64,000 bases of DNA from Burkholderia cepacia (lineage in GTDB: Bacteria > Pseudomonadota > Gammaproteobacteria > Burkholderiales > Burkholderiaceae). Shown here in pieces: positions 32,664-38,817 of this stretch. The DNA lies in assembly GCF_029962485.1 (NCBI RefSeq), contig NZ_CP073638.1, forward strand, positions 1,612,001 to 1,676,000. The letters are read 5' to 3'. A program made the translations under genes and the position numbers. A model generated the notes under the pieces. It had not been told where the DNA came from. It made no database searches and saw only the letters and a program-made list of their open reading frames with translations. Each line of letters opens with the position of its first letter. Positions within the stretch are counted from its first letter, which is position 1.

Positions 32664-34280
32664 TCATGCCCCGTCGAGCGCCTGCCTCGCCGCCTCCCAA
32701 TCGAGCCCGAACCGCGCGAGATACTTGCGCAGCCGGTCCGCATCGTTCGGCTGCTTCTTGCTCTGCCGCGACACCGCGAACAGCGTGCGCCCTGCTTCCG
32801 ACAGGCTCGCCGAAGTGCGACACACGTCGAGCACGCGTTCGAGCTGCGCCCGGTCGAACAGGTCGAGTTCCGCCGCGCGCGTACCGAACACCGCGTCAAC
32901 GCACGATTCCGACACACCCGCGCCGCCCGGCGACGACCACGTGCGCGTCAGCCGCTCGACTTCCTGCTCGGCAAGCGCCTCGGTAATCCGCCCTGCATCG
33001 GCCAGCGTCGCCATCCGCGTGACCGACGCCGACAGTTCGCGGAAGTTGCCGGCCCACGTTGCGCGCGGTGACGCCGCGAACGCGAGATAGCGCCGCTTCG
33101 CCTCCACGTTGAATCGCACCTGCTCGCCCTGCTCGCGGCCGAAGCGATCGAGTTCGAATTCGAGATTCGGCTCGATGTCCTCGCGGCGTTCGGCGAGCCC
33201 CGGCAGTTCGTACGTCCACAGATTGATCCGCGCATAGAGATCCTCGCGGAACGTGCCGGCCGCCACCATCTGCCGCAGGTCGCGATGCGTGCCCGCAATC
33301 AGCTCGAAATCGCTGGTCGCCTCGACGTCCGCGCCGACCGGCAGGAAACGCTTCTCCTCGATCGCCTTCAGCAGCATCGCCTGCTCGTCGAGCCCGAGCT
33401 CACCGATCTCGTCGAGAAACAGCAGCCCGCCGTCCGCCGCGCGCAGCAGGCCCGCGCGCGCCGTCTGCGCGCCCGTGAACGCGCCCTTCACGTGCCCGAA
33501 CAGCGTCGACATCGCCGCGTCGCCGCGCAGCGTCGCGCAGTTGATCTCGATGAACGGCCCCGCGAGCCGATGGCGGCCGCGCTTCAGCTCGTACACGCGC
33601 TTCGCGAGAAACGATTTGCCGGCGCCCGTCGGCCCGACCAGCAGCATCGGCGCGCGCGAACGCACGGCCACGCGCTCCAGTTGCTCGATCAGCGCATTGA
33701 AACGCGCGTTGCGCGTGGCGATGCCGGCCTTCAGGAACGACACCGTTTCGTCGCGCTCCCGCGTGAAGCGTTGCGCGATCCGGTTGTAGCGCGACAGGTC
33801 AAGATCGATCACCGATATCGTGCCCGGCCCGCTCGGGCCCTCGTCGGTCCGCTGCGGCGGCCCCGTCTGCACGAGCCGTGCGGGCAGGTAGCGCGCTTCC
33901 GCCAGCAGGAACCAGCAGATTTGCGCGACGTGCGTGCCGGTCGTGATGTGGATCAGGTAATCCTCGTGCTCGAGGTCGAACGGATATGCGCGTGCGAAGT
34001 CGTGCAGCGTCGCGTAGACCTCCTCGAAATCCCACGGATCGTGGATCGTGACCGGCGTGAGCCGCACGTCGGTATGCGGCGACAGTTGCGCGAGATCCTC
34101 CCGCACGTGGCTCGCGAGACGCAGGTACTCCTTCGGATACAGCAGTTCGAGCCGGTCGATCGGCTGGCCGGGATGCTCGCACAGCGAAATCGTCGGCCGC
34201 CATTTCGGGTAGCGACGCGCCGTGCGATCGCCCTGATCGAGCACGATACCGAGAAAACCGATGGCAACGGTCTTTCGCAT
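32664..34280 (-). CDS. rtcR: RtcR, sigma-54-dependent activator of RNA repair (538 aa)
   Basis: The N-terminal 180 residues form the CARF-type sensor domain of RtcR (MRKTVAIGFLGIVLDQG), thought to sense RNA ends. Then comes an AAA+ sigma-54 activator domain: Walker A GPTGAGKS at 216-223, GAFTGA at 266-271 (contacts sigma-54) and Walker B LLFLDE at about 286-291. The C-terminus is a DNA-binding helix-turn-helix region. Length matches E. coli RtcR (532 aa). It is divergent from the RNA-repair operon, which has a sigma-54 promoter. GTGAGA precedes the ATG. Confidence 0.95.
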   Translation of the reverse strand: MRKTVAIGFLGIVLDQGDRTARRYPKWRPTISLCEHPGQPIDRLELLYPKEYLRLASHVREDLAQLSPHTDVRLTPVTIHDPWDFEEVYATLHDFARAYPFDLEHEDYLIHITTGTHVAQICWFLLAEARYLPARLVQTGPPQRTDEGPSGPGTISVIDLDLSRYNRIAQRFTRERDETVSFLKAGIATRNARFNALIEQLERVAVRSRAPMLLVGPTGAGKSFLAKRVYELKRGRHRLAGPFIEINCATLRGDAAMSTLFGHVKGAFTGAQTARAGLLRAADGGLLFLDEIGELGLDEQAMLLKAIEEKRFLPVGADVEATSDFELIAGTHRDLRQMVAAGTFREDLYARINLWTYELPGLAERREDIEPNLEFELDRFGREQGEQVRFNVEAKRRYLAFAASPRATWAGNFRELSASVTRMATLADAGRITEALAEQEVERLTRTWSSPGGAGVSESCVDAVFGTRAAELDLFDRAQLERVLDVCRTSASLSEAGRTLFAVSRQSKKQPNDADRLRKYLARFGLDWEAARQALDGA

Positions 34281-34429: not shown

Positions 34430-34446
34430 TGGCACGCTCCTCGCTT
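34430..34446 (+). promoter_or_regulatory. Sigma-54 (-24/-12) promoter of the RNA-repair operon
   Basis: TGGCACGCTCCTCGCTT fits the consensus TGGCACG-N4-TTGCW with one mismatch, and GG to GC spacing is exactly 12. The predicted start of transcription is near 34456, so the non-coding RNA segment forms the first 490 bases of the transcript. The AT-rich DNA between here and rtcR should hold the RtcR activator sites. Confidence 0.88.
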
Positions 34447-34505
34447 AATAGAACACGCCGGATGTCCCGCTGGCCCGCGAGTCAGGGTTCAACAAGCCCT
34501 GCTGG

Positions 34506-34542
34506 TGCGCCGCCGCCGAACCTCGTTCGTCGCGGTAGCGCA
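34506..34542 (+). ncRNA. Long hairpin in the RNA-repair leader
   Basis: TGCGC/GCGCA, CCGC/GCGG and CGAAC/GTTCG stack into one rod of 14 pairs with small internal loops and a CTC apical loop. It lies directly upstream of the first tRNA-like element and within the sigma-54 transcript. It could be a protein-binding arm, like the stem of a bacterial Y RNA, but no Ro/Rsr gene is nearby. Confidence 0.5.
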
Positions 34543-34569
34543 TGCCGCCATGGACAGATGAAGGCAAAG

Positions 34570-34617
34570 GGGCGCGCGCCAGGATGCCTCGTCCGGGTTC
34601 GAATCCCGGAGCGCCCA
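34570..34617 (+). ncRNA. tRNA-like element 1: acceptor plus T arm minihelix
   Basis: GGGCGC (34570-34575) pairs with GCGCCC (34611-34616). The T arm is perfect: CCGGG, loop TTCGAAT, CCCGG (34593-34609). Only 17 bases lie where D and anticodon arms should be, so this is not a functional tRNA; the fold is an acceptor/T-arm minihelix of about 48 nt. It is transcribed from the sigma-54 promoter, just upstream of tRNA-like element 2. Confidence 0.65.
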
Positions 34618-34618
34618 T

Positions 34619-34691
34619 TGTTCGGAAGCTCAGCCAGGTGGAGCAGCCGGCGAAAGCCGGCCGGTGGCGGGTTCGAATCCCGCTCGAACAC
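34619..34691 (+). ncRNA. tRNA-like element 2 with GAAA-capped stem instead of an anticodon arm
   Basis: A 7-bp acceptor (TGTTCGG 34619-34625 with TCGAACA 34684-34690, one G-U). D arm GCTC/GAGC (34628-34631, 34641-34644) has a GG-containing loop. T arm GCGGG-TTCGAAT-CCCGC spans 34667-34683. Between D and T arms, where the anticodon arm belongs, is GCCGGC-GAAA-GCCGGC (34646-34661), a GNRA tetraloop hairpin with no anticodon loop. CCA is not encoded. It should fold like a tRNA but cannot decode. YrlA-type Y RNAs also carry tRNA-like modules, so a role as substrate, decoy or ligand of RtcB/RtcR is plausible. Confidence 0.8.
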
Positions 34692-34948
34692 TGTCCGTAA
34701 AGACAGTCTTGTGATGAAAGCAGTACCCGCCGGTGCGGGCCGACAGGCCCGCCGCGCGTCGGACCGGTCAAGGTTCCGCGCGATCGGCCGGGCGGCCGCA
34801 CGGCCCGCGCGAATGCGCACGACGACGCGATGCAGGATGCGTCGCTGTGTGCTTCGACGCCGGCCAGCGCGCCGCCCGCCCGATCGCGTCGCACCCCGAT
34901 TCGCACGATGCGCGTCACCCGGCGGCCGTTGAAAAAAAGGACAAAAAT
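34692..34948 (+). other. Leader between tRNA-like RNA 2 and the slipin gene
   Basis: No coding sequence is supported. Two further stems are visible: CTGTC/GACAG at 34691-34706, right after the tRNA-like RNA and followed by TCTT, and GCGGGCC-GACA-GGCCCGC at 34735-34752. They may define the 3' ends of the small RNAs. Confidence 0.45.
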
Positions 34949-36088
34949 ATGTGGAAGCGTCATGTAGTGAAAAAGAACGAACGCGCGCTGCTGATGAGCG
35001 AAGGCGATTTCGTGAAGGTGCTGGAACCGGGCGTGTTCAAGGCTTTCGATCCGTTCAAGCGTCTGTCGGTGCAGACCGCGCGTCTCGACGCGCCGCTCGC
35101 CGACGCCGCGCTGGCCGACTACCTGCGTCACGACGCACCTGACGTGCTCGCGCGGTACTTCGTCGCGATGGATCTCGCCGACGACGAAGCGGGCCTGCGC
35201 TATGAAGACGACGTGCTCGTCGAGATCCTGGCGCCGGGCACGCGCCGGCTGTACTGGCGCGGCCTGACCGCGCACCGCCTCGAACGCGTCGACCTCGCGC
35301 AGGACAGCATGCTGCCGGCCGCGCTCGTGAAGCGCATCGCGCAACCGGCGCTGCGGGCACGCGGCGTGGCGGGCCTGACGGGCGTACTGCTGGCGCAGGT
35401 GCCGGCGTACCACGTCGGCGTGCTGAAGATCGACGGCAAGATCGAGCGGTTGCTGGACGCGGGTACGTCGGCGTTCTGGCGCTTCAACCGCGACGTCGCG
35501 GTCGAACTCGTCGACCTGCGCCTGCAGGCGATCGAAGTCGGCGGACAGGAAATCCTGACGCGTGACAAGGTCGCGCTGCGGTTGAACCTGTCGGCGACGT
35601 GGTGCTATGCAGACGTGCTGCGTGCATTCGGCCAGTTGCAGAAGCCGGTCGAGCACCTGTATCGCGAGCTGCAGTTCGCACTGCGCTCGGCGGTCGGCAC
35701 GCGCTCGCTCGATGAACTGCTGGAGGACAAGCAGTCGATCGACGAGGTCGTGATCGCACAGGTGCGTGCCCGTCTCGGCGATTCGGGCGTGGACGTGCGC
35801 AGCGTCGGCGTGAAGGATATCGTGCTGCCGGGCGACATGAAGACGATCCTCGCGCAGGTGGTCGAGGCGGAGAAATCCGCGCAGGCGAACGTGATTCGCC
35901 GCCGCGAGGAAACGGCGGCCACGCGTTCGCTGCTGAACACCGCGAAGGTGATGGAAGAAAACCCGACCGCGCTGCGGCTCAAGGAGCTGGAAACGCTCGA
36001 GCGCGTCGCGGAACGGATCGACCGCATCTCGGTGTTCGGCGGTCTCGACCAGGTGCTGAACGGACTCGTCAGCATCAAGGGCACGTAA
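34949..36088 (+). CDS. Slipin/SPFH (band 7) protein of the RNA-repair operon (379 aa)
   Basis: SPFH-domain protein: FVKVLEPGVFKAFDPFKRLSV at the N-terminus and, in the second half, VEHLYRELQFALRSAVGTRS followed by the long helix ILAQVVEAEKSAQANVIRRR typical of stomatin/slipin assemblies. No strong membrane segment precedes the domain. AAGGA lies before the ATG, which follows an A-rich stretch. Slipin genes next to rtcB are a known association, but their biochemical role is unknown; scaffolding of the repair enzyme is a guess. RtcB follows 60 bp downstream. Confidence 0.85.
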   Translation: MWKRHVVKKNERALLMSEGDFVKVLEPGVFKAFDPFKRLSVQTARLDAPLADAALADYLRHDAPDVLARYFVAMDLADDEAGLRYEDDVLVEILAPGTRRLYWRGLTAHRLERVDLAQDSMLPAALVKRIAQPALRARGVAGLTGVLLAQVPAYHVGVLKIDGKIERLLDAGTSAFWRFNRDVAVELVDLRLQAIEVGGQEILTRDKVALRLNLSATWCYADVLRAFGQLQKPVEHLYRELQFALRSAVGTRSLDELLEDKQSIDEVVIAQVRARLGDSGVDVRSVGVKDIVLPGDMKTILAQVVEAEKSAQANVIRRREETAATRSLLNTAKVMEENPTALRLKELETLERVAERIDRISVFGGLDQVLNGLVSIKGT

Positions 36089-36148
36089 TGCAGGACACGG
36101 CGCGGCACGCGTGTGCCGCGCCGGACAACGAAATGAATGGTGAAGCAA

Positions 36149-37372
36149 ATGAATGACATGGGTTACCAGGTGATGGAACTGGCGAACGGCAAGCCGGTGA
36201 AGATGTGGACGCAAGGCGTCGCCGTCGAGGACGAAGCGCGCGCGCAGCTGCGCAACACCGCGCAGATGCCGTTCGTCTTCAGCCACATCGCGGTGATGCC
36301 GGACGTCCACCTCGGCAAGGGCTCGACGATCGGCAGCGTGATTCCGACGAAGGGCGCGATCATCCCGGCCGCGGTCGGCGTCGATATCGGCTGCGGGATG
36401 ATGGCGGCACGCACGACGCTGACGGCGTCCGACCTGCCGGATTCGCTCGCGGGGCTGCGCGGCGCGATCGAGCGCGCGGTGCCGCACGGCCGCGCGCCGG
36501 GCCGTCGCGATCCGGGCGCGTGGGGCGATCGCACGCCGGCCGCCGTGACCGAATCGTGGAAGTCGCTGCTGCCGGGTTTCCAGCGGATCGTCGACAAGTA
36601 TCCGAAGCTGGAAAAGACGAACCACTACGCGCATCTCGGCACGCTGGGCACCGGCAATCACTTCATCGAAGTGTGCATCGACGAAGCGGACCACGTGTGG
36701 TTCATGCTGCACAGCGGCTCGCGCGGCGTCGGCAATGCGATCGGCAGCCTGTTCATCGAACTCGCGCAGGCCGACATGCGTCAGCACATCGCAAACCTGC
36801 CGGATCGCAACCTCGCGTATTTCACCGAAGGCAGCCGGCACTTCGACGACTACGTCGAAGCGGTCGGATGGGCGCAGGACTATGCGCGGCGCAATCGGCA
36901 GGCGATGATGGACGCGGTGATCGCCGCGGCGCGCAGCGTGATCGCGAAGCCGTTCGCGGTCGACGAGCACGCGGTGAACTGCCACCACAACTACGTGCAA
37001 CGCGAACGCCACTTCGGCGAAGACGTGCTCGTGACGCGCAAGGGCGCGGTGTCCGCGCAGAAGGGGCAACTGGGGATCATTCCGGGCTCGATGGGCGCGA
37101 AGAGCTTCATCGTGCGCGGGCTCGGCAACCCGGAAAGCTTCTGCTCGTGCAGCCACGGCGCGGGCCGGACGATGAGCCGCACCGAAGCGAAGCGCCGCTT
37201 CACGGCTGACGACCAGGCGCAAGCCACGCAAGGCGTCGAATGCCGGAAGGACGCGGGCGTCGTCGACGAAATCCCGATGGCCTACAAGGACATCGACGCG
37301 GTGATGGCGGCCCAGCGCAGCCTCGTCGAAGTGGTGCACACGCTGCGTCAGGTGGTGTGCGTGAAGGGATAG
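36149..37372 (+). CDS. rtcB: RNA ligase RtcB (407 aa)
   Basis: GTP- and Mn2+-dependent ligase that joins 2',3'-cyclic phosphate or 3'-phosphate ends to 5'-OH ends, as in broken tRNAs. Metal ligands and active site are intact: GVDIGCGM (Cys82), GTGNHFIEV (167-175), HSGSRG (188-193), HHNYVQ (279-284) and the guanylated histidine in SHGAGR (His336). I start at MNDMGYQVMEL (36149), which aligns with the E. coli N-terminus and gives nearly the same length; 36137 is an alternative. No rtcA (RNA cyclase) gene follows. Confidence 0.97.
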   Translation: MNDMGYQVMELANGKPVKMWTQGVAVEDEARAQLRNTAQMPFVFSHIAVMPDVHLGKGSTIGSVIPTKGAIIPAAVGVDIGCGMMAARTTLTASDLPDSLAGLRGAIERAVPHGRAPGRRDPGAWGDRTPAAVTESWKSLLPGFQRIVDKYPKLEKTNHYAHLGTLGTGNHFIEVCIDEADHVWFMLHSGSRGVGNAIGSLFIELAQADMRQHIANLPDRNLAYFTEGSRHFDDYVEAVGWAQDYARRNRQAMMDAVIAAARSVIAKPFAVDEHAVNCHHNYVQRERHFGEDVLVTRKGAVSAQKGQLGIIPGSMGAKSFIVRGLGNPESFCSCSHGAGRTMSRTEAKRRFTADDQAQATQGVECRKDAGVVDEIPMAYKDIDAVMAAQRSLVEVVHTLRQVVCVKG

Positions 37373-37665: not shown

Positions 37666-38817
37666 ATGTCGCACCGTTTTTCGCTTGCCCTCGCCGTCCT
37701 CCTCGCCGTTTCCCCATTCGCCGCACAGGCCCGTCCGCTCGCGCGGCCGCCGGTCGAGCGCGATTTCAAGAACTGGGCAGTTGTCTGCGACAACGGCAAT
37801 CGCTGCATCGCCGAAAGCCATGCGGACGATATCGACGATGCACGCCCCACCCTCATCCTGCGCGTGACGCGCGATGCCGGCCCCGATGCGCAACCGTCGC
37901 TCGACCTCTACGCGTCGGCGCCGCTGGACCTGCGTACCGCACGCGTCGACGGCCGCCCGTTCGATGCGGTGCCGGCCCAATGGCATGCGTTCGGCGACAA
38001 GACCGACGACGAAGCACACCCGTTCCGGGTCCGCACGAGCGATCCGGCAACGGTTGCCGCGTGGCTTTCCGCGTCGCGCAACGCACAGCTGCTGAGCTTC
38101 GGCGATCCGGCGTCGGCGCACACCGCGCGTACGCCGTTGTCGGGGCTGAATGCCGCGCTGCTGCTGATCGACGATACGCAGGGCCGTGTCGGCACGGTCA
38201 CCGCGCTGCTGCGCCCCGGTACCAAGCCTGCGTCGTCGGTGCCGTCCGCACCGGCGCTGCCGCCCGCCGTCACGCCGGCGCCGCCGCCCGTCGCCAACCT
38301 GTCGGCAGCAGAACAGCGTCCGCTCGTCGACGCGGTGCTTGCGAAATTCGGCACGGACGTGAAGCAATGCGCGGCCGATGTCGAAGACGAAATGTCGGCA
38401 AGCGATCGCAGGAAGGCGTCGACCGCCGTCGCGATCTCGGCCGACGAGGCGCTCGTCGCGATCCCGTGCCAGACCAGCAGCATGTATAACCACACCGATC
38501 TGTGGTATCGCATCCGCCGCACCGCACCGTACGCGCCGACGGCCCTGAATTTCGGCGAATACGCGAATGCGGGCCTCGATTCGGCGTCGTTTCCGAATGA
38601 ACTCACCGACGCCGGCTACGATCCGTCGAGCGCGATGCTGTCGAGCAAGGTCCGGTTGCGCAGTGCCGGCGATTGCGGCTCGACCGCGTCGTGGATCTTC
38701 GACGGCCGGCGCTTCCTGCTCGCCGACATCGCAACGCACGGCACCTGCAACGGCCTGTTCCAGGATCAGTGGCCACGCCTGTATCGCCGCGCCGACGCGA
38801 GCACAAGCGCGCACTGA
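37666..38817 (+). CDS. DUF1176-family exported protein (383 aa)
   Basis: Signal peptide MSHRFSLALAVLLAVSPFAAQA. The mature protein begins with RDFKNWAVVCDNGNRCIAES, the N-terminal signature I associate with DUF1176, and ends with a segment FDGRRFLLADIATHGTC-like. Several cysteines point to disulfides in the periplasm. A Pro/Ala-rich linker near residue 200 separates two halves. No function is established. It converges with the methyltransferase gene. Confidence 0.8.
   Translation: MSHRFSLALAVLLAVSPFAAQARPLARPPVERDFKNWAVVCDNGNRCIAESHADDIDDARPTLILRVTRDAGPDAQPSLDLYASAPLDLRTARVDGRPFDAVPAQWHAFGDKTDDEAHPFRVRTSDPATVAAWLSASRNAQLLSFGDPASAHTARTPLSGLNAALLLIDDTQGRVGTVTALLRPGTKPASSVPSAPALPPAVTPAPPPVANLSAAEQRPLVDAVLAKFGTDVKQCAADVEDEMSASDRRKASTAVAISADEALVAIPCQTSSMYNHTDLWYRIRRTAPYAPTALNFGEYANAGLDSASFPNELTDAGYDPSSAMLSSKVRLRSAGDCGSTASWIFDGRRFLLADIATHGTCNGLFQDQWPRLYRRADASTSAH

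Follow-up and report, generated by a model that had tools for sequence, protein, structure and literature searches.

An RNA with the outline of a tRNA and no anticodon arm lies ahead of the slipin and RtcB genes in an RNA-repair locus of Burkholderia cepacia, which raises the questions of what such an RNA does there and with which of the neighbouring genes it belongs. The window, i.e. the whole 64,000-nt stretch of DNA analysed, came from a 7.7-Mb genome in three contigs (G000), whose slipin gene had its closest named relatives in Burkholderia species. The element, designated TL-B, is a real feature and part of a wide RNA system. It is not a product of chance, since blastn matched 40 of the 65 genomes of the genus, 39 of these matches being located in the intergenic region between RtcR and slipin; the remaining one, in G028, was a 36-nt chance match without slipin or RtcR.

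Organization of the locus

The features of the locus are listed in Table 1. With a divergent RtcR gene, a sigma-54 promoter motif and an RtcB gene, it represents an RtcR-controlled RNA-repair operon; no RtcA was found among the genes tested. The promoter, which is of the sigma-54 consensus type, had a mean column identity of 99.4% in 39 Burkholderia leaders, and a motif of this type recurred in most of the RtcR-slipin leaders scanned. The leader lying 3′ of it, between RtcR and slipin, was about 490 nt in length, and TL-B was situated, as the first-pass annotation had it, within the transcript that also encodes RtcB; this transcript is predicted to depend on sigma-54 and RtcR, and TL-B precedes both slipin and rtcB in it.

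Some variation in layout was observed elsewhere. In Burkholderia sp. MS389 (L121), about 1.2 kb of additional DNA separated slipin from rtcB. Two other loci, L226 and L228, had RNA-repair islands adjoining slipin, with RlaP-type polymerase-beta proteins and RtcA, and L226 gave two RtcB matches.

Table 1 Features of the RtcR-slipin-RtcB locus, in coordinates of the window
Feature	Position (nt)	Strand	Evidence
RtcR, CARF-AAA-type sigma-54 activator, divergent	32664-34280	-	Pfam PF06956 (E 9.4e-79) and PF00158
Sigma-54-type promoter TGGCACGCTCCTCGCT, -24/-12, GG-GC spacing 10 nt	34430-34445	+	Sequence motif
M0 domain	34462-34551	+	cmsearch with model R1, 71.3 bits; covariation
TL-A, reduced tRNA-like module	34570-34616	+	Sequence; 39-leader alignment
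TL-B, anticodon-less cloverleaf (element first reported)	34619-34691	+	ARAGORN, fold, alignments, pair counts
GNRA-type hairpin GCCGGC-GAAA-GCCGGC, in the place of the anticodon arm	34646-34661	+	4/6 pairs changed on both sides (39 rows)
3′ hairpin CTGTCC-GTAA-AGACAG, immediately 3′ of TL-B	34691-34706	+	3/6 pairs changed on both sides (39 rows)
GC-rich leader remainder, conserved, non-coding, GCAGTACCCGCCGG at start	34720-34948	+	Identity; broken frames
Slipin (SPFH/Band 7)	34949-36088	+	PF01145
RtcB RNA ligase	36137-37372	+	PF01139 (E 1.5e-129)
DUF1176, next tested gene 3′ of RtcB, not RtcA	37666-38817		PF06674

Structure of TL-B and the rest of the leader

ARAGORN called TL-B as "tRNA-???", the sole tRNA call in the window. 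Its acceptor stem (34619-34625/34684-34690) had 7 pairs including one G-U, the D arm was at 34628-34644 and the T arm, with the loop TTCGAAT, at 34667-34683, whereas a 6-bp hairpin with a GAAA loop replaced the anticodon arm. The fold was better than those of shuffled sequences (z -3.1, with none of 200 shuffles as good), which, together with the ARAGORN call and the arms found as described, confirmed the anticodon-less cloverleaf first reported. Position 8 in the window copy was an A. Having a GAAA tetraloop instead of a 7-nt loop with U33, and no encoded 3′ CCA, TL-B is not a canonical tRNA, and the view of it as a tRNA-like element that cannot decode was borne out. Within the genus, the loops closing the stem in place of the anticodon arm included GAAA, GCAA, GCGA and GAGA and, once, a loop of seven bases.

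Three structures absent from the first-pass annotation, M0, TL-A and a GNRA-type 3′ hairpin, were present alongside TL-B. M0 contained a hairpin, CAGGG..CCCTG (34483-34501), and a helix, TGGTGCGC/GCGC-AT-GCCG, in which 34503-34510 paired with 34538-34547 leaving a 2-nt AU bulge; a bulge of two bases was constant across rows from Burkholderia to Chamaesiphon. TL-A had the acceptor GGGCGC/GCGCCC and a T arm at 34593-34609, with about 17 variable nt in place of the D and anticodon arms. A small hairpin was also observed at the position of the 3′ hairpin in many other lineages.

Mean column identity in the 39 genus leaders was 96% for M0, 97.8% for the T arm and 3′ acceptor strand of TL-A, 61.4% for the middle of TL-A, 91% for TL-B and 94% for the 3′ hairpin. 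It fell to 69% 5′ of the promoter and to 76% just 3′ of the 3′ hairpin, and was 0.96 (34720-34800) and 0.91 (34801-34948) in the remainder of the leader. A coding leader was rejected, as the three long frames tested, namely that at 34462-34932, a 5′ extension of slipin from 34733 and an antisense ORF, were each interrupted in roughly half of the 39 leaders or more: 23-27 leaders had net frameshifts and 20-27 had internal stops. The motif GCAGTACCCGCYGG was located 3′ of the hairpin in Burkholderia, at 34720-34745 in the window, and was also seen in Pseudomonas, Thiobacillus and others.

Covariation in the RNA

The genus alignment contained 39 rows (38 distinct) of Burkholderia and close kin, the window included. 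They came from 47 loci after removal of five identical ones (L004, L011, L029, L033 and L137), of L073 for its degenerate TL-B and of two that were not parsed (L038 and L152). Pairs changed on both sides were present in the GAAA-loop stem and the 3′ hairpin (Table 1), and four of five measures, including the covariation score, beat all 500 shuffles; the count of further pair types was not above shuffles (167/500). Compensatory changes in related leaders, which the initial report had set as a test of the D, T and GAAA stems alike, were seen for the GAAA stem and not for the D and T stems, which like the acceptor stem were nearly invariant in the genus and therefore uninformative on covariation there.

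Across phyla, the D, T and acceptor stems did covary. The alignment comprised 60 of 71 modules from Proteobacteria and cyanobacteria; three upstream modules whose D arm was of another type, near-duplicates and the atypical L112 had been removed. Since a row had to show a T arm, a D arm and no fewer than 5 acceptor pairs, some of the conservation in this alignment follows from the selection itself; the anticodon stem played no part in that choice, and all five of its pairs covaried. Overall, 93.6% of the cells were paired and 307 had changed on both sides, with a covariation score of 0.648 versus 0.173 in shuffles, above all 500 of them, and the number of pairs with both-side change was not outstanding (38/500 shuffles).

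For M0, 43 rows ranging from Burkholderia to Chamaesiphon were obtained by a motif scan that missed some loci, several of which were afterwards recovered by model R1. In this alignment, to which L203 and L204 of the 23 sampled slipin loci described below also contribute rows, 93.7% of the cells were paired and 45 had changed on both sides. The score was above 500/500 shuffles; the number of pairs with both-side change was not outstanding (87/500).

Decoding capacity of the modules

The anticodon loop was counted between five-pair stems, as inward extension of the stem would also shorten normal loops having a 32-38 pair. A normal loop was missing in 41 of the 60 modules, 28 having 4-6 loop bases instead of 7 and 13 of the 32 with seven bases lacking T33, and was normal-looking in the other 19, which had T33. 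In the control, all 19 distinct true tRNAs of G000 possessed a 7-nt loop, T33 and an encoded CCA; xCCA was encoded in 11 of 71 relative modules. At the elbow, the D-loop GG and TTC-R-A were present in 60/60 modules, T8 in 58 and A14 in 59, but modules had been selected on their T arm and on some of the D arm. At least one module passed the Rfam tRNA threshold in 16 of 18 loci tested, the exceptions being the two Burkholderia loci, so that many such modules are probably annotated as tRNAs. This is a warning for annotation, as a module may score as an ordinary tRNA, while many of them are unable to decode.

The Rfam scores, together with those modules having a 7-nt loop with T33 or an encoded xCCA, would suit backup or degenerate tRNA genes resembling stress-induced tRNA operons. 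However, loops that are not normal were found in most modules and in none of the 19 true tRNAs, a GNRA loop closes the stem in Burkholderia, and the strong covariation speaks against decay. Moreover, five of the 19 normal-looking modules carried the A34 anticodons AAT or AGT, which are unusual in bacteria. Backup tRNAs therefore appear a very improbable explanation.

Anticodon nucleases read the anticodon arm, which is precisely the part not kept in these RNAs, being replaced in TL-B and erratic in its relatives; the suggestion that the element serves as bait for such nucleases therefore lost ground. In a broader form, the RNA would be a competitive inhibitor or decoy: having the shape of a tRNA, it would engage nucleases that cut tRNAs, or enzymes that handle them, under stress and would escape cleavage itself. 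Retention of the elbow together with a replaced or erratic cleavable loop is consistent with this, and competitive inhibition was raised for YrlA in the available part of Hughes et al. 2020 (PMC7790460), but a decoy leaves the linkage to slipin described below unexplained and is regarded as quite unlikely.

Association with the slipin gene

RtcR was present in 40 of the 65 genus genomes, namely the 39 mentioned above and G051, which keeps M0 and both T arms and has a degenerate TL-B. By blastn, the element was accordingly detected in 39/40 genomes with RtcR and, apart from the chance match in G028, in 0/25 without it.

Outside the genus, an even sample of 398 Pseudomonadota genomes was searched for slipin by tblastn, giving 26 genomes, 23 with a full-length homologue. 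T arms were found within 700 nt 5′ of slipin in 22/22 testable loci (L217 ends at a contig edge), at least two in 21 of them, and downstream of slipin in 1/23. None was found at three distant Band_7 genes in the sample, nor was the T-arm core, which occurs 237 times in the 7.7 Mb of G000 with true tRNAs counted in, observed in the four stretches covering the other five Band_7 genes of that genome. Among the collected loci, a T arm was upstream of slipin in 83/84, a set with many Burkholderia and one locus counted twice, downstream in 2/77, and in 5/24 slipin-less RtcR loci, three of these five genomes having YrlA-like matches adjoining RtcR. Where found, the last T arm was 224-569 nt 5′ of the slipin start and always on the same strand.

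M0 showed a similar association. A search of the 398 genomes of the phylum gave six strong matches, 6/6 adjoining slipin, with strict filters that missed weaker copies such as that of L204 (45 bits), and model R1 matched 0/26 slipin-less loci (25 RtcR-positive by tblastn, one 1.1 kb long). By direct scan, a strong M0 was present in only 10 of the 23 sampled slipin loci; L205, L206, L212, L216 and L220 had R1 scores of 20-28 bits on the correct strand just 5′ of the modules, which is within the noise of up to about 28 bits.

Of the 23 sampled slipin loci, 7 had RtcR no more than 1.5 kb away, and at least two others (L226 and L234) had it at up to 6 kb. Neither RtcR nor RtcB gave a match over roughly 12 kb at five slipin loci of another class, probably Alphaproteobacteria, or over 5-8 kb at five named alphaproteobacterial slipin loci. 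In the cyanobacterium Chamaesiphon, M0 and tRNA-like modules were present and neither RtcR nor RtcB was found. The genes beside RtcR-less slipins belonged to unrelated Pfam families (e.g. LysR, PGK and ketoacyl synthase) or, for several ORFs, had no match. The genetic partner of the tRNA-like modules is thus slipin, a gene not named in the first-pass annotation, and not RtcR or RtcB.

These distributions bear on the proposals that the element is a signal RNA for RtcR or a test substrate for RtcB. Its location within the RtcR/RtcB operon in Burkholderia and Pseudomonas suits a ligand of either protein, but the RNA is kept with slipin where neither was found, including the ten loci above, and the M0 model matched none of the slipin-less loci of the RtcR search. 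There is consequently little to commend either proposal, and the chance that one of them is correct seems slight.

A cis-acting leader is the main rival and a serious one, with a substantial though lesser chance of being right. The modules would stay in the slipin mRNA and control slipin, either through operator mimicry, with slipin, RtcB or a tRNA enzyme repressing until broken tRNAs compete, or as processing sites for RNase P and RNase Z that free the slipin mRNA. The position is constant, 5′ of slipin and on the same strand in every case found; the leader is conserved in the genus right up to the start codon; and the T arm and acceptor, which are the handles of RNase P, are among its most constant parts. 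On the other hand, three structured domains and covarying hairpins exceed the needs of a cleavage site, the modules are mostly paired and once in triplet, and those of Chamaesiphon locus L173 lie about 1 kb 5′ of the slipin core match, although the gene start there may be earlier.

The triplet, three tRNA-like modules in succession, was observed at L212:1072-1286. Several Chamaesiphon loci had a third T arm about 120-165 nt 3′ of the pair.

The slipin protein

The protein has a Band_7 domain and the SPFH fold and thus belongs to the slipin family. No strong membrane segment was found in 38 homologues. In the AlphaFold2 model (pLDDT 84), additional beta domains at the N terminus accompanied the SPFH core and a long helix, and the relatives of known structure were stomatin, HflK, QmcA and flotillin. 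Such relatives form rings according to the accessible part of one report (PMC9157467), and rings and cages according to the titles of structure entries, and slipin is predicted to be a ring- or cage-forming protein. Major vault protein aligned over nearly the full length of slipin, more weakly than stomatin, and the N-terminal fold alone was not specific to it. The protein had no net positive charge.

In Burkholderia stagnalis and Burkholderia sp. SRS-46 (L137:3501-5081 and L170:3501-5081), the beta-domain region was duplicated in frame and in tandem, giving slipins of 527 aa versus 379 aa; several Chamaesiphon slipin matches likewise span more DNA.

The P. aeruginosa slipin (PaFlo8) was placed in the rtc locus in a study whose text does not contain the word tRNA; there, its single deletion left pyocyanin, swimming and biofilm unaffected (PMC13086221). 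In Anabaena, a slipin gene and rtcB were described, in the accessible part of the paper, as repressed by the regulator of a tRNA operon (PMC10272220).

Relation to known RNAs

The closest printed case was Pcar_R0061, a "mutant tRNA" of Pelobacter carbinolicus, which is also tRNA-like with its decoding parts damaged and is flanked by a divergent rtcR on one side and by a stomatin-like gene with rtcA/rtcB on the other; it was proposed by its authors as a substrate or guide (PMC3543383). It differs in being described as a single mutated tRNA-Asn, in one genome, and in having the anticodon arm still there, and section 6 of the account, the part available, speaks neither of a pair or M0 nor of slipin as a linked family (PMC3543383). 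Judged by title and the start of the abstract, no slipin-linked tRNA-like RNA was described among the matches listed from the open literature, and Pcar_R0061 is, among these, the only printed precedent, an isolated case (PMC3543383).

YrlA, a bacterial Y RNA (RF02553), is likewise non-coding, carries a tRNA-like module and occurs in RtcR-controlled RNA-repair operons, so that the comparison with YrlA made in the first-pass annotation was apt. YrlA pairs with the ring protein Rsr (Ro60), whereas the leader RNA has two successive modules and slipin as partner; the absence of Ro/Rsr from the locus also held for the genome, no TROVE match (PF05731) being found in G000. Membership in YrlA was rejected, the window match scoring 19.5 bits versus a gathering cut-off of 69. 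The sub-threshold YrlA scores met in slipin loci (28-32 bits) look like those of tandem tRNAs, given that matches with E up to 0.001 were likewise obtained in 7 of 14 control genomes. In Salmonella, the RNA-repair operon has been tied to damaged tRNAs, and the tRNA-like domain of YrlA was uncut, according to the available portion of the report (PMC7790460).

A weak alternation between slipin and YrlA was observed, in that YrlA adjoined RtcR in 10/24 slipin-less versus 1/14 slipin loci (p 0.03, kinship ignored). The comparison covered 38 of 44 RtcR genomes, leaving out G000, G012 and four weak matches, at cut-offs of 45 bits and 9 kb, with YrlA on other contigs (G336 and G343) uncounted. Of 40 genomes, 8 gave a TROVE match, and slipin was found in none of these 8. 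One slipin locus, L090 (G389:C34:74515-74635), had a YrlA-like match of 50.6 bits near RtcR and possibly possesses both RNA types.

tmRNA and the eukaryotic mascRNA/menRNA resemble the modules in that they combine a T arm and acceptor with the lack of a normal anticodon arm. Both assignments were rejected: the RF00023 match was a 17-nt T arm only (15.8 bits versus a cut-off of 47), and mascRNA scored 23.6 versus 42.5. The vault particle, with major vault protein and vault RNA, is also among the closest known systems.

Possible function

Taken together, the constant partner, constant elbow, missing or erratic anticodon, repair promoter and partial alternation with YrlA suggest that the M0/TL-A/TL-B RNA may be a trans-acting tRNA mimic bound by slipin in a particle like that of Ro and Y RNA, serving tRNA repair. 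The probability of this reading is put at about 0.43. In Burkholderia, broken tRNAs would activate RtcR, as shown by others in Salmonella, and sigma-54 RNA polymerase is predicted to produce a single transcript with the RNA first, followed by slipin and RtcB. The modules might then mature in tRNA fashion, and slipin could bind the tRNA elbow and acceptor that they display. The particle would recruit or scaffold the repair ligase or handle damaged tRNAs, its own RNA presumably being no substrate for anticodon nucleases.

Several observations stand against a slipin-bound mimic acting in trans. The constant 5′ position on the same strand also fits a cis-acting leader; the modules with normal-looking loops (19/60) or encoded xCCA (11/71) indicate that some might still be tRNAs; a strong M0 was seen in fewer than half of the sampled loci (10/23); slipin lacks a net positive charge; deletion of PaFlo8 alone left pyocyanin, swimming and biofilm unchanged (PMC13086221); and G389 carries both slipin and a YrlA-like match.

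A bolder and rather improbable version is that of an ancient, unrecognised ribonucleoprotein, in which a soluble slipin with multiplied beta domains would cage its own non-coding RNA, the paired mimics would display an anticodon-less elbow, and damaged tRNAs and RtcB would be gathered inside, the whole replacing the Ro/Y-RNA particle in RNA-repair operons.

What were scattered, odd "tRNA genes" can thus be seen as a single conserved RNA system that has one constant protein partner. This bears on two questions, the role of SPFH proteins without a membrane anchor and the purpose of the RNAs of RNA-repair operons, and the occurrence of the slipin-RNA pair in Proteobacteria and cyanobacteria makes both testable. 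From its locus number and from PA4582 and PA4583 (rtcB) in the accessible part of PMC8619066, PA4581.1 was taken as the P. aeruginosa copy of the RNA; annotated as a "tRNA gene", it was among the most increased transcripts in a late P. aeruginosa isolate, according to the available part of that study (PMC8743555).
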